Shown piece by piece: positions 46,764 to 51,029 of a stretch of 64,000 nucleotides of DNA. The notes under the pieces were generated by a model. That model made no database searches and was not told where the DNA came from. It saw only the letters and a program-made list of their open reading frames with translations. Origin of the DNA: Chryseobacterium gallinarum (GTDB lineage Bacteria > Bacteroidota > Bacteroidia > Flavobacteriales > Weeksellaceae). Each line of letters starts with the position of its first letter. Position 1 is the stretch's first letter. The position numbers and the translations under genes were made by a program. Location of the stretch: NCBI RefSeq assembly GCF_001021975.1, contig NZ_CP009928.1:1-64000 (forward strand). Direction: 5' to 3'.

Positions 46764-47211
46764 AAATCGGGATTTTTTTTGACTTAAGCTAATTTAGTTA
46801 AGAGTTCACTTTCCTAAAGCCGATAGTTGAAGATTACAAAAAATTCCCCTGATTATCCTATCAAATAATACTCCCTTTATGGTAGCAAAACAATTAAGCC
46901 TCATTTTTAGATTTATTCAAAAACTGGCTCTAAAAAAACAAGCCCCACCACATTAAATAATTCTTAAAAATTTAAATTAATTTTATCTTTTTCACAATGC
47001 TCATTTATTTAAAAACGAATCATTACCACACTACAATTTTTAATTTACTATTTGAAACATATAATGCTTTAAATAAAAATAAAATTTAAAACATTAAAAA
47101 TCAGTACAAAACAATATTAACGGTAATTTAATATACAAAAAGCCTACTTTTTTAGTGGACTAATAAAAATTAAATTATATATTTGCAAACATATTCCGGA
47201 AAAAAAATAAA
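46764..47211. other. Very AT-rich gap before the leader ORF
   Basis: No ORF or hairpin of note before the TATATTTG box at 47178. No SAM-riboswitch-like structure was recognised. Confidence 0.55.
47178..47185 (+). promoter_or_regulatory. Promoter -7 box TATATTTG of the metNIQ unit
   Basis: TAnnTTTG match 26 bases before the leader ORF start. Transcription from here would give a short 5' region, the leader ORF, and the terminator at 47335-47366 before the first transporter gene. Confidence 0.55.
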
Positions 47212-47310
47212 ATGGCATTAGAATTTAAAAATAATTCAAAACATAAACACAGCATCAAAAATATAATGATGTGTATCTGTATGCCTATACATCGGGAATA
47301 TTGTGGATGA
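47212..47310 (+). CDS. Candidate Met/Cys-rich leader peptide
   Basis: A 32-codon ORF, too short for routine calling. Its second half reads IMMCICMPIHREYCG, with three Met and three Cys among 14 residues. It lies between a promoter box and a terminator, 86 bases before the EamA gene and upstream of metNIQ. This is the classical layout of an attenuator leader for methionine or cysteine. Coding and regulation are inferred; no homologue is known to me by name. Confidence 0.5.
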   Translation: MALEFKNNSKHKHSIKNIMMCICMPIHREYCG

Positions 47311-47334
47311 CCTTACTTTTATATGACATATTTT

Positions 47335-47366
47335 AAAAGGCTCTGCAATAACGCAGGGTCTTTTTT
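47335..47366 (+). terminator. Attenuator-type terminator before the EamA-metNIQ genes
   Basis: Stem AAAAGGCTCTGC (47335-47346) with GCAGGGTCTTTT (47353-47364), two G-T pairs, followed by T's. It is intrinsic-terminator-like and lies between leader ORF and structural genes. GACCTT at 47309-47314, across the leader stop codon, could pair with AGGGTC (47355-47360) and open the stem, giving an antiterminator of only 6 bp. Confidence 0.6.
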
Positions 47367-47396
47367 ATTGAACTGAACAACATTAAAAAAATAAAA

Positions 47397-48395
47397 ATGA
47401 GCAATTCTAAAAACAAATGGCTGGTTCCATTGGCATTTACGAACATCTATGTAATATGGGGAATTACGTTTTTAGCTATTTCATTTGGCTTGAAGGGTTT
47501 TCCACCATTCATTCTTTCAGGATTGAGATTTCTGGTCGCTGGAATCTTGATGATTGGATATCTCCTGTCGAAAGGGGAAAAAGCAAATTCTTTGATCAAC
47601 TGGAAAAAGAATGCTATTACCGGAATTCTGATTCTTACAGGCGGAACCGGGCTTGTGGCCTGGGGGGAGCAGTATGTGACAGCGTCAGAAGCTGCCATTT
47701 CTATTGCTACCGGGCCGTTCTGGTTTATTGCAATTGATAAAAAGAATTGGAAATATTATTTTTCAGATAAATTTATCCCGATCGGGTTGGTCATTGGATT
47801 TGTAGGATTGGTATTATTTCTAAAGGGAAGTGTGAACTCTAATGCAGCTCATATTGTAGCGAACGGCCAACTCCGTATTACGGCATTTGTTGTGTTGGGA
47901 TTAAGCTCCGTAGCATGGGTATTGGGTTCTTTGTATTCGAAAAAAAATCCGGCTTCACAGTCTACTTTTATGAACATCGCTCAACAGCTTATCATAGCTG
48001 GTTTAGCTTCCTTTTTGATTGCTTTTTTAAGAAAAGAATGGGTTGGTTTTACAGTTTCAGCAATTCCGTTACCGGCATGGCTAGGAGTTCTATTTTTGAT
48101 ATTCTTTGGATCTATAATCGCTTATTTGTCGTACATTTGGCTCTTGTCCGTAAAACCCGCTGCGCTGGTAAGCACCCATACCTATATTAATCCTATTGTC
48201 ACGGTGATTGCAGGCTGGATTGTAGCCCATCAAAGCATCAATGGAAGCCAGCTATATGGTTTATCAATTATATTGCTGGGAGTACTTCTGACGAATGTTA
48301 CCAAGTACTTCAAGCTTTCAAAACGGTCAAAAGTTAAACTAAGAAGATTAAGAAGATTTTTTAATAAGCCAGGCAAACGATATCAGCCTGTTTAA
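47397..48395 (+). CDS. EamA-family (DMT) transporter
   Basis: A 332-residue, roughly ten-helix drug/metabolite transporter with two EamA repeats (first around ITFLAISFGLKGFPPFILSG, second around GVLFLIFFGSIIAYLSYIWL). Members export amino acids or metabolites; some act on cysteine or its pathway products. It lies 18 bases before metN behind the Met/Cys leader, so a link to sulfur amino acids is plausible. The C-terminal tail is unusually basic. Confidence 0.85.
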   Translation: MSNSKNKWLVPLAFTNIYVIWGITFLAISFGLKGFPPFILSGLRFLVAGILMIGYLLSKGEKANSLINWKKNAITGILILTGGTGLVAWGEQYVTASEAAISIATGPFWFIAIDKKNWKYYFSDKFIPIGLVIGFVGLVLFLKGSVNSNAAHIVANGQLRITAFVVLGLSSVAWVLGSLYSKKNPASQSTFMNIAQQLIIAGLASFLIAFLRKEWVGFTVSAIPLPAWLGVLFLIFFGSIIAYLSYIWLLSVKPAALVSTHTYINPIVTVIAGWIVAHQSINGSQLYGLSIILLGVLLTNVTKYFKLSKRSKVKLRRLRRFFNKPGKRYQPV

Positions 48396-48413: not shown

Positions 48414-49442
48414 ATGATAGAAATCAGGAACATTTCAAAAACATTTTATCAGAAAAAGCAATCCTTCAAAGCGCTGGATCAGGTAAGCCTCAATATAGAA
48501 AAGGGTGATATTGTAGGAATCATCGGCTTTTCCGGTGCCGGAAAAAGTACGCTAATCCGTACGGTAAATCTACTGGAAAGACCTGATGAAGGTCAGATTA
48601 TCATTAATGGAAAAGACTTTACCCAATTAAGTTCAAAACAACTGGCGGAAGAACGCAAAAAAATAGGAATGATCTTCCAGCATTTCAACCTGCTTTCCTC
48701 AAGGACTGTTTTTGATAATGTAGCCCTTCCTTTGGAGCTTGACCGTCTCAGCAAGGAACAGATTCATAAAAAAGTATACGAACTGCTGAAAATTGTAGGT
48801 CTTGAAAATAAAGCCAACGATTATCCCAAAAGCCTTTCCGGAGGTCAGAAGCAGAGAGTAGCGATCGCCAGGGCATTAGCCAATGACCCTCACCTGCTTC
48901 TTTGTGACGAAGCTACCAGTGCCCTTGACCCGGTAACTACACAATCTATCCTGCAATTGTTGAGAGATATCAATCAAAGGCTGGGCATTACCATTCTTCT
49001 GATTACTCACGAAATGGAAGTCATCAAAACAGTATGCAACCATGTTGCTGTGATAGACCACGGAAAATTATTAGCTAAAGGAACTTTAAGTGAGATCATT
49101 TCCAACAGGGAAAATCCTGTGATCCGCCAATTTATAAATTCAGACATTATGATCCTGCCCCAAGAGCTTACCCGCAGAATACAAAAGGAACCCCAAGACG
49201 GACTGTTTCCTCTTGTTGAATTAGAGCTTAACGCAAACATCAGTGTTGAAGAAATCCTGTCAACATTACATCATCAATATAAAATTCCTTGTAAACTTCT
49301 AAAAGCCGAGGTAGAATATTTCGGGAATTCGAACTTTGGAAAGCTGTTGCTACAGCTCCAGGGGAAGACTGAGGAAAACCAGCAGGCTATTTATTATTTC
49401 AATCAAAATAAAATTCAAAATACAGTAAAAGGATATGCTTAG
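48414..49442 (+). CDS. metN: Methionine ABC transporter ATP-binding protein
   Basis: Energizes D/L-methionine import. Walker A GFSGAGKST, signature LSGGQKQR, Walker B LLLCDEATSALD, and a C-terminal NIL domain (VELELNANISVEEILSTLH), the regulatory domain that binds methionine in MetN. 342 residues. It overlaps metI by 8 bases. Confidence 0.93.
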   Translation: MIEIRNISKTFYQKKQSFKALDQVSLNIEKGDIVGIIGFSGAGKSTLIRTVNLLERPDEGQIIINGKDFTQLSSKQLAEERKKIGMIFQHFNLLSSRTVFDNVALPLELDRLSKEQIHKKVYELLKIVGLENKANDYPKSLSGGQKQRVAIARALANDPHLLLCDEATSALDPVTTQSILQLLRDINQRLGITILLITHEMEVIKTVCNHVAVIDHGKLLAKGTLSEIISNRENPVIRQFINSDIMILPQELTRRIQKEPQDGLFPLVELELNANISVEEILSTLHHQYKIPCKLLKAEVEYFGNSNFGKLLLQLQGKTEENQQAIYYFNQNKIQNTVKGYA

Positions 49443-50091
49443 TGATACGGTAATTGCCCTTTTGGCAAAAGGGACATGGGAAACGGTTTATATGACATTT
49501 GTTTCCGGTTTTTTTGGATTTGTTTTAGGCCTTCCGGTTGGGATTCTGTTGTTTTTAACAAGAAAAGGACAACTTCTGGAAAATGTATTGTACCACAGGA
49601 TTTTATCTGTTATCGTGAATATTTTCCGTGCCATTCCTTTTATCATTCTGATCGTTTGGATGATTCCTTTCACAAGAATTCTGGCTGGAACATCCATCGG
49701 GGTCAACGCGGCATTGGTTCCTCTCAGTATAGGTGCAGCCCCGTTTATTGCAAGGCTGGTAGAAAACAGCTTAATTGAAGTTCCACATGGTTTAATCGAA
49801 ACAGCAAGGGCAATGGGAGCTTCCCCTTTCCAGATTATCAGGAAAGTACTTCTTCCCGAAGCTCTTCCCTCATTAATCAACAATGCAACGATTACGTTAA
49901 TTACCCTGGTTGGATATTCTGCTATGGGAGGAGCTGTAGGTGCCGGTGGATTAGGCCAGGTTGGTTATCAGTATGGCTATATTGGCTATGATATTGTGAT
50001 TATGAATACGGTGTTGATATTACTTGTTCTTTTGGTTTTTATCATACAATTTGCCGGAGATAAATTTTCAAAGCGGTTTGATCACAGATGA
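49435..50091 (+). CDS. metI: Methionine ABC transporter permease
   Basis: A 218-residue permease of five helices with the EAA-like ATPase contact region (ETARAMGASPFQIIRKVLLPEA). The conserved start LAKGTWETVYMTFVSGFF is present. Pairs with metN and metQ. Confidence 0.93.
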   Translation: MLSDTVIALLAKGTWETVYMTFVSGFFGFVLGLPVGILLFLTRKGQLLENVLYHRILSVIVNIFRAIPFIILIVWMIPFTRILAGTSIGVNAALVPLSIGAAPFIARLVENSLIEVPHGLIETARAMGASPFQIIRKVLLPEALPSLINNATITLITLVGYSAMGGAVGAGGLGQVGYQYGYIGYDIVIMNTVLILLVLLVFIIQFAGDKFSKRFDHR

Positions 50092-50222: not shown

Positions 50223-51029
50223 ATGAAAAAAATAAAAATCTTAGGAATATTAGCAGCAGGAGTATTGTTATTCAGTGCCTGCTCCGGAAGAAAAGATGAC
50301 CCTAACTTTATCAGGGTAGGCATCACTTACGGGCCTGAACAGGAAATTGCAGAAGTAGCCAAAAAAGTGGCTAAAGAAAAATACAATCTTGAAGTGGAAC
50401 TTATTCCTTTCAATGATTATGTGGTTCCTAATGAAGCCCTGACCAATGGGGATATTGATGCAAATGCCTTTCAGCACATTCCTTATTTAACCGAGCAGTC
50501 AAAACAGCGGGGGTACAACCTTGCACCTGTAGGAAATACCTTTGTATACCCAATTGTGGCCTATTCAAAAAAGATTAAAAATATTGGAGAACTACAGGAA
50601 GGAAACACAATCGTAATTCCCAATGACCCCACTAATGGAGGACGTTCTTTACTTTTATTGCAAAAAAGCGGATTGTTGAAACTAAAAGATGGTGTCGGTT
50701 TACTACCTAAAGTTACTGATATTATTGAAAATCCGAAACAACTAAGAATCATGGAGATTGAAGGAGCACAGATCCCAAGAGTTCTGGATGACAGGGATGT
50801 TATAGTAGGAATTATCAATAACAATTTTGCAGCCCAGGCCGGTCTGGATTCTGAAAAACAAGGAATTCTCATTGAAGATAAAGATTCACCATATGTGAAT
50901 GTGATCGTTGCAAGGCAAGACAACAAAAACAGCCAGAAAGTAAAAAATTTCGTTAAGGCCTATGAATCTGATGCCGTAGAAAAGAAAGCAAAAGAAATTT
51001 TCAAAGGAGGAGCGGTGAAAGGTTGGTAG
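50223..51029 (+). CDS. metQ: Methionine-binding lipoprotein
   Basis: NlpA/MetQ-type substrate-binding protein. The ATG at 50223 gives a lipoprotein signal (GVLLFSACSG, lipid on Cys); the open frame extends further up but would spoil the signal. The mature part has VGITYGPEQEIAEVAKKVA, NAFQHIPYLTEQSKQRGY and VNVIVARQDNKNS. It lies 131 bases behind metI, still in the same direction, and ends in a terminator at 51087. Confidence 0.93.
   Translation: MKKIKILGILAAGVLLFSACSGRKDDPNFIRVGITYGPEQEIAEVAKKVAKEKYNLEVELIPFNDYVVPNEALTNGDIDANAFQHIPYLTEQSKQRGYNLAPVGNTFVYPIVAYSKKIKNIGELQEGNTIVIPNDPTNGGRSLLLLQKSGLLKLKDGVGLLPKVTDIIENPKQLRIMEIEGAQIPRVLDDRDVIVGIINNNFAAQAGLDSEKQGILIEDKDSPYVNVIVARQDNKNSQKVKNFVKAYESDAVEKKAKEIFKGGAVKGW

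Follow-up and report, generated by a model that had tools for sequence, protein, structure and literature searches.

Does a short open reading frame (ORF) in front of a methionine importer operon of Chryseobacterium gallinarum control transcription of that operon, and if so, by what signal? The initial annotation of the window (the whole stretch of DNA analysed, 64,000 nucleotides) had proposed a leader-peptide attenuator upstream of an EamA-metNIQ unit. The promoter box TATATTTG, the 32-codon ORF and the stem with its T-run were all present where it had placed them, and its gene calls, EamA and a methionine importer, were backed by Pfam matches for EamA, MetN, MetI and MetQ. The locus comprises the following features:

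47141..47161, no strand assigned: inverted repeat AGCCTACT-TTTTT-AGTGGACT upstream of the promoter, consensus AGTCYACT-N5-AGTRGACT
47178..47185, plus strand: predicted −7 box TATATTTG of the Bacteroidota type
47212..47310, plus strand: leader ORF of 32 codons and a stop, MALEFKNNSKHKHSIKNIMMCICMPIHREYCG, with its ATG 26 bases past the TATATTTG box
47266..47283, plus strand: putative regulatory codon cluster Met-Met-Cys-Ile-Cys-Met, codons −14 to −9 from the stop
47279..47286, plus strand: region 1, GTATGCCT, complementary in relatives to AGGC..TAC in the left arm of the terminator
47299..47314, plus strand: region 2, TATTGTGGATGACCTT, the putative antiterminator strand, overlapping the stop codon
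47335..47366, plus strand: predicted intrinsic terminator (left arm 47335–47346, loop 47347–47352, right arm 47353–47364, T-run 47361–47366)
47337..47350, plus strand: region 3, AAGGCTCTGCAATA, putative antiterminator partner of region 2, mostly terminator left arm
47397..48395, plus strand: EamA/DMT transporter gene (PF00892)
48414..49442, plus strand: metN (PF00005, ABC_tran; PF09383, NIL)
49435..50091, plus strand: metI (PF00528, BPD_transp_1)
50223..51029, plus strand: metQ (PF03180, Lipoprotein_9), its start placed at an internal ATG by choice

The organization is that of an attenuator: a short ORF lies between the box and the first gene, and its Met/Cys cluster fits the operon, metNIQ. 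Three Met codons (47266, 47269, 47281) and three Cys codons (47272, 47278, 47302) were confirmed shortly upstream of the stop, as had been claimed, and the stop codon TGA (47308–47310) lies within GGATGACCTT. The terminator stem, AAAAGGCTCTGC-aataac-GCAGGGTCTTTT (47335–47364), is followed by T up to 47366 and has a hairpin energy of −15.6 kcal/mol in the window sequence. A simple terminator scan of the window did not list the 47335–47366 stem; we think that the rule of the scan lets A-T pairs consume the T-run. In the window, the match of region 1 to the left arm is chiefly GCCT:AGGC.

The 231-base region was matched, wholly or in its leader part, in 56 of 59 genomes of the same genus (its own included), and all 56 matches were read as leaders. 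No match was found in two of the 59 (G044, G052) and only short stretches in a third (G040). Four leaders from genomes with weak profile matches (L093, L141–L143) completed a set of 60, in which three leaders outside the first motif filter (L019, L020, L042) were counted and from which none of the 56 was dropped. The sequence TAnnTT[TA]G was common to 59 of these 60 leaders, 20–28 nt upstream of the ATG; we take TAnnTTTG to be the consensus of the Bacteroidota-type −7 box. A leader-peptide profile built from 53 peptides and searched against 296 genomes of the family (cut-off E 0.01) matched 141 of 149 Chryseobacterium genomes, some of them sources of the profile (the 149 were counted from rows), and 0 of 147 genomes of other genera of the family. 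With the profile in 141 of 149 congeners and the box in 59 of 60 leaders, the leader goes beyond chance. The exact core motif, searched in one genome per GTDB species, occurred at 27 loci, 24 of which were titled Chryseobacterium or Weeksellaceae.

All eight leader-less congeners also lacked metN at E 1e-70. Forty congeners in the order sample had metN; one (G055), with leader and metN on separate contigs, was omitted from the adjacency count. The leader was upstream of metN in all 39 measured, directly in 17 and with about 1.1 kb (EamA) between in 22. The gene following the 60 leaders was EamA-like in 35 cases, metN in 24 and uncalled in one. From these adjacency counts, the leader tracks metN and not EamA. 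In its own genome, the leader peptide had just two weak partial matches (E 0.25 and 1.46). ATGTGYTGY occurred at 85 places there, 30 of which were inspected for short ORFs; the one with a strong hairpin (L269) was rejected as a leader, being another frame of a longer gene.

All 60 leaders start with ATG, keep the frame intact and are 31–34 codons long. Counted from the stop, Met was found at −14 in all 60, at −15 in 52 (Ile in the window) and at −13 in 44 (otherwise Lys, 16/60). Cys was found at −10 in 58 and at −11 in 30, followed by Met at −9 in 55 and Pro at −8 in 53, the other seven carrying Ser, His, Arg or Ala there. Past Cys-Met-Pro come seven codons, variable in sequence and constant in number. 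The initial annotation had named loss of the Met/Cys codons among relatives as evidence against its proposal; they were kept genus-wide. Codon −2 ended in GT in 57 of 60 leaders (TGT 29, AGT 11, CGT 10, GGT 7; the rest GTT 2, TTT 1), while the residue varied between Cys, Ser, Arg and Gly. A varying residue with a constant GT suggests an RNA constraint at this position. The Cys codon at −2 is unlikely to be regulatory, because the residue is not conserved and the position falls on the terminator side of the ribosome model described below. Further upstream, Lys −21 (51/60; AAA 34, AAG 17) and Ile −18 (49/60) were also conserved, for which plain codon starvation gives no explanation.

The pairings were evaluated on an alignment of 60 rows, 58 of them distinct (alignment A2). 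For the terminator, 98.9% of cells were paired and 18 cells were changed on both sides; none of 500 shuffles was as high on either measure. The predicted terminator is thus supported by covariation. The three candidate antiterminator pairings, all counted on the same alignment, fared differently. The initial annotation had proposed that GACCTT (47309–47314) pairs with AGGGTC in the right arm. The two are complementary in the window, but as a conserved antiterminator this pairing was rejected: it was 71.6% paired in the 58 distinct rows, against up to 60.5% for slid pairings. Of its six pairs, two formed in just 3 and 20 of the 58 rows. What was conserved of the arrangement proposed at the outset was the end of the ORF and the terminator stem, but not this pairing. 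The stop region (region 2) was 86.4% paired with the left arm (slid, 53.2% or less), and region 1 was paired with the same arm in 96.8% of cells (slid, 55.7% or less). The stop region probably keeps its nucleotides because they can pair with the terminator's left arm. Covariation beyond shuffles was absent from alignment A2 for all three antiterminator pairings.

The exposed leader of the window is predicted to fold as TATTGTGGA.G.CCTT with AAGGCTCTGCAATA (−10.2 kcal/mol). When region 2 was shuffled, the mean z was −0.80, with 9 of 60 leaders below −1.64 and the window at −0.55. Dinucleotide shuffles of the exposed tail gave z −1.56 and p 0.076 for the window. An energy p ≤0.05 was reached by 4 of the 13 Chryseobacterium leaders tested (13 of the 60), by 2 of 8 metN leaders of the genus g3 and by 10 of 13 metY, cysH, peroxiredoxin and rhodanese leaders (see below), and z was negative in 32 of 34 leaders overall. 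Native left arms averaged −8.7 versus −8.3 kcal/mol for swapped ones, with a mean rank of 14.6 of 32. Modelled folding energy alone is weak evidence for an antiterminator in this genus. A protecting 1:2 hairpin was not noticed, in an inspection that was not a systematic search.

Ribosome position was modelled by letting a ribosome hide 14 nt from the first A-site base and folding the rest as far as the terminator loop. Region 1 or 2 captured the left arm in 59–60 of the 60 leaders for A-site positions from codon −17 to codon −7. Capture fell to 58 at codon −6, 33 at −5 and 30 at −4, and was 0/60 from −3 to the stop. In this model, the conserved Met/Cys cluster of the 60 leaders falls entirely on the antiterminator side.

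From these patterns we infer translation, stalling, termination and the amino acids read as follows. RNA polymerase would start right after the TATATTTG box, and a ribosome would read the 32 codons of the leader. A shortage of charged Met-tRNA or Cys-tRNA would stall it within the Met/Cys cluster, at codons −15 to −9, and leave region 2 free to pair with region 3 in the left arm; no terminator would form, and the operon would be transcribed. With Met and Cys plentiful, the ribosome would reach the stop and cover region 2, so that the terminator could form and transcription would end. A leader free of ribosomes would be expected to adopt the antiterminator. Cys may be as important as Met, since the metN leaders of another genus of the family (g35) keep Cys-Cys and few Met. 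We hold it to be very probable that 47178–47366 serves the EamA-metNIQ operon as a ribosome-mediated transcription attenuator. The proposal of a Met/Cys leader-peptide attenuator is strongly supported by the conserved codons, their spacing from the stop and the terminator; across the genomes compared, the frame, the complementarity and the link to metN are conserved as well.

A stall could also have another cause. In nascent-chain arrest, the peptide would sense methionine, SAM or cysteine, or be intrinsically slow in the exit tunnel, and this stall would throw the switch instead of tRNA scarcity. The conserved Lys −21 and Ile −18, the former written as both AAA and AAG, would fit such a peptide, and so would the nearly invariant Cys-Met-Pro, whose Pro is unexplained by Met/Cys starvation. 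However, seven of 60 leaders do without this Pro, its codon CCT may persist through RNA pairing (region 1), and the leaders read in other genera have Met/Cys codons in common with this one, not the Lys, Ile and Pro residues. We consider arrest unlikely.

It is more improbable still that the leader is a new riboswitch or protein-binding RNA with an incidental ORF. Such an RNA would account for GTGGNTGACCTTACTTTT being kept as nucleotides at and past the stop, and for a codon −2 that ends in GT in 57 of 60 leaders while encoding four residues, but the left-arm pairing accounts for this conservation too, and an incidental ORF would hardly keep its frame in 60 of 60 leaders with Met/Cys codons at a fixed distance. 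There was no Rfam match either: neither the window nor 16 metN loci gave any, with no SAM riboswitch class above the gathering score, and the T-box riboswitch, whose model is part of Rfam, had 0 matches in the window. A functional trans product, for example a metal-binding or membrane peptide followed by an ordinary terminator, seems scarcely credible. The peptide is rich in Cys and Met and conserved in the genus, but its residues past the Pro vary freely at a constant number, and its conservation tracks RNA geometry. The invariable position upstream of metN (39/39 measured) and the different peptides with the same geometry in other lineages also speak against this idea.

SAM riboswitches control sulfur genes elsewhere in the same genome. 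Three SAM-I riboswitches (RF00162) were found, at 2308522, 1513754 and 2159847, none of them upstream of metNIQ; they precede a metX/hom-like unit and two TonB-receptor-like genes (names given by eye). The inverted repeat at 47141–47161 is possibly a transcription-factor operator of a sulfur regulon: CTAC-N4..7-G[TA]RG was found upstream of 42 of the 60 leaders. Near-copies of the repeat in the own genome (≤3 mismatches) numbered 20 rows, equal to the 20 of the reversed control. Some of them lie next to two SAM-I riboswitch/TonB-receptor-like genes, other TonB-receptor-like genes, a kbl-like gene and a peroxiredoxin-like gene (all named by eye).

Related leaders were found in other Bacteroidota. 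Outside Chryseobacterium, metN was present in 19 genomes of the order sample. In a genus of another family (g3), a Met/Cys leader with a terminator was found at 8 of 10 metN loci (L094, L126–L131, L133). The genus g35, from the family of Chryseobacterium, had short leaders with Cys-Cys and few Met at 5 of 5 loci (L095, L135–L137, L139); the fit of these Cys leaders to the position model is weak (−3 to −8 kcal/mol with the ribosome at the Cys codons). The one genome of the sister genus g52 (G218; L297, reverse strand, about 436–534 and 616–717) has two tandem Met/Cys leaders, each with a terminator, followed by EamA, a further ORF and metN; the genus profile misses them. Both fit the position model, in which 6 and 9 nt were captured on their clusters and 2 and 5 nt at the stop. 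The metN locus concerned is L124, where genes precede metN and these two leaders lie further upstream. No leader was found within 400 nt upstream of metN at five loci outside the genus (L125, L132, L134, L138, L140), of which L132 and L134 belong to g3, and none was seen for metN in g42 (one genome) or g43 (two genomes).

The core motif MMM(Y/C)CCMP also occurred in two other Bacteroidota metagenome-assembled genomes, upstream of metY (L153, near 4610; L159, near 1614). Both loci have two tandem Met/Cys leaders, each with a terminator; the upstream leader at L153 does not fit the position model. A further match (L165) was taken as chance. The shorter MMMCC occurred at 44 places in 42 of 395 Bacteroidota genomes, against 5 places in the reversed control (counted by eye). 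Forty-three were read as loci; the 44th is the L127 metN leader. Twelve of the 44 places combine a short ORF and a strong terminator, and all twelve lie upstream of sulfur-linked genes (metY 8, metN 1, cysH 1, peroxiredoxin 1, rhodanese 1). Pfam backs the gene kinds on the pieces given to it, with the cysH piece just below the cut-off; the remaining metY genes were named from the similarity of their N-termini, and the metY search found G060 and G413 a second time. The weak hairpins seen at L194 and L202 were judged to be chance. No strong terminator was found at the remaining MMMCC places, most of which were looked at briefly; at one of these (L177), the motif lies 178 nt upstream of a cysH-like gene, without a terminator.

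The position model was also applied to 21 leaders of other Bacteroidota, where a stall on the Met/Cys codons captured 6–13 nt of the left arm. With the ribosome at the stop, capture was 0–3 nt in 20 of them and 5 nt in L128. These are not 21 independent cases, since close relatives are among them several times. The MMMCC leaders with terminators at L204 and L213 lie upstream of a peroxiredoxin gene and a rhodanese gene, and thiol-defence genes may also be controlled by MMMCC leaders.

In 198 Bacteroidota genomes, metY was present in 154 (E 1e-110). The loci read were the 30 matches most similar to the query, a non-random choice, and metY was not located in one (L242), so 29 were evaluated. The detector found a leader with a terminator at 0 of the 29 from these best 30. 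A SAM-type riboswitch was found in 28 of the 30, at L222 and L245 some 700–800 nt upstream. Nine of these metY loci (L220, L221, L224–L227, L230, L231, L233) have a short ORF rich in Cys and Met between metY and a SAM-I riboswitch; these ORFs end, for example, in MCCCCR or MCMCCCC, and no terminator was found just after them. A tandem of riboswitch and leader is possible there. The detector also flagged a TTG-start ORF at L236. A SAM-II riboswitch match (L179:1036–1142, minus strand) lies on the opposite strand near a metY leader of the g3 type. By these surveys, leader attenuation appears as one solution among others in Bacteroidota.

All these loci could belong together. Sulfur attenuators would then occur phylum-wide, with a Met-Met-Met-x-Cys-Cys core that reads the charging of Met-tRNA and Cys-tRNA together and switches metNIQ, metY-metX, cysH and thiol-defence genes, beside or instead of SAM riboswitches. 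In Chryseobacterium, there would be two alternative antiterminator strands, region 1 (freed when the ribosome stalls at the first Met codons) and region 2 (freed when it stalls at Met or Cys), so that the response to a shortage of Met and Cys would be graded. We put this joint reading forward tentatively and think it somewhat more likely to be wrong than right.

Given the leaders upstream of metY and cysH, Bacteroidota seem to gauge their sulfur supply through translation as well as using SAM riboswitches. Tiny leader ORFs easily escape annotation, and the Met/Cys core offers a handle for searching them. A comparative study of 2004 is said to have predicted some classical attenuators in Bacteroidetes/Chlorobi, and Canestrari et al. 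reportedly described the cysteine leader peptides of actinobacterial cys operons in 2020. In the open-licence literature, we found no Met/Cys leader attenuator in Bacteroidota.

A similar case is metL in Streptomyces lividans, a Met/Cys-rich leader (MSTTSDRTPATEATTTPGARCMCRRMCAF) upstream of metNIQ (PMC8079986). According to the authors' account in the available part of that paper, metL has a leaderless start and no typical Rho-independent terminator, unlike the leader described here; it comes from a single actinobacterium and is likened to ours by description (PMC8079986). In the excerpted report on actinobacterial cys operons, Cys leader peptides have runs of Cys codons upstream of sulfur genes, as here, whereas the Mycobacterium cases are without conserved terminator hairpins and the terminator here is conserved (PMC1262725). 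A paper of 2010 states, in the portion at hand, that its own Firmicutes case was the first to be shown beyond Proteobacteria and Actinobacteria (PMC2965389). Leader genes in several phyla including Bacteroidetes are covered by another account, Met and Cys being absent from the part available (PMC4833913), and short ORFs resembling leader peptides are mentioned for Bacteroides in an excerpt (PMC7366714). For Flavobacterium psychrophilum, of the same phylum, transcript mapping gave strong clues for leader-peptide attenuation of amino-acid biosynthesis operons, in an account that, as excerpted, names neither Met/Cys, sulfur genes nor metN (PMC9723704). The initial annotation knew of no description of ribosome-mediated attenuation of metNIQ in Bacteroidota, and as far as we found this holds for Met/Cys cases; leader-peptide attenuation in flavobacteria has been described in a general way, going by the same excerpt (PMC9723704).

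With such general cases in the literature, a Met/Cys leader is a known kind of attenuator, here with unusual codons and in a phylum that has been little explored. SAM-I riboswitches (RF00162), too, control sulfur amino-acid genes, although none lies upstream of metNIQ here. They bind SAM directly. Ribosome-mediated attenuators are best known from biosynthetic operons of Proteobacteria, and the classical ones are the trp, his, thr and ilv leaders. The present locus seems to show an importer in Bacteroidota attenuated with Met and Cys as regulatory codons. Like the classical leaders, it has a short ORF, clustered regulatory codons, a putative antiterminator over the stop and a terminator upstream of the first gene. 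It differs from them in its Met/Cys codons, its target, a methionine importer, and its Bacteroidota host. Further differences are that a 1:2 protector was not noticed here and that region 3 is complementary to region 1 as well as to region 2.
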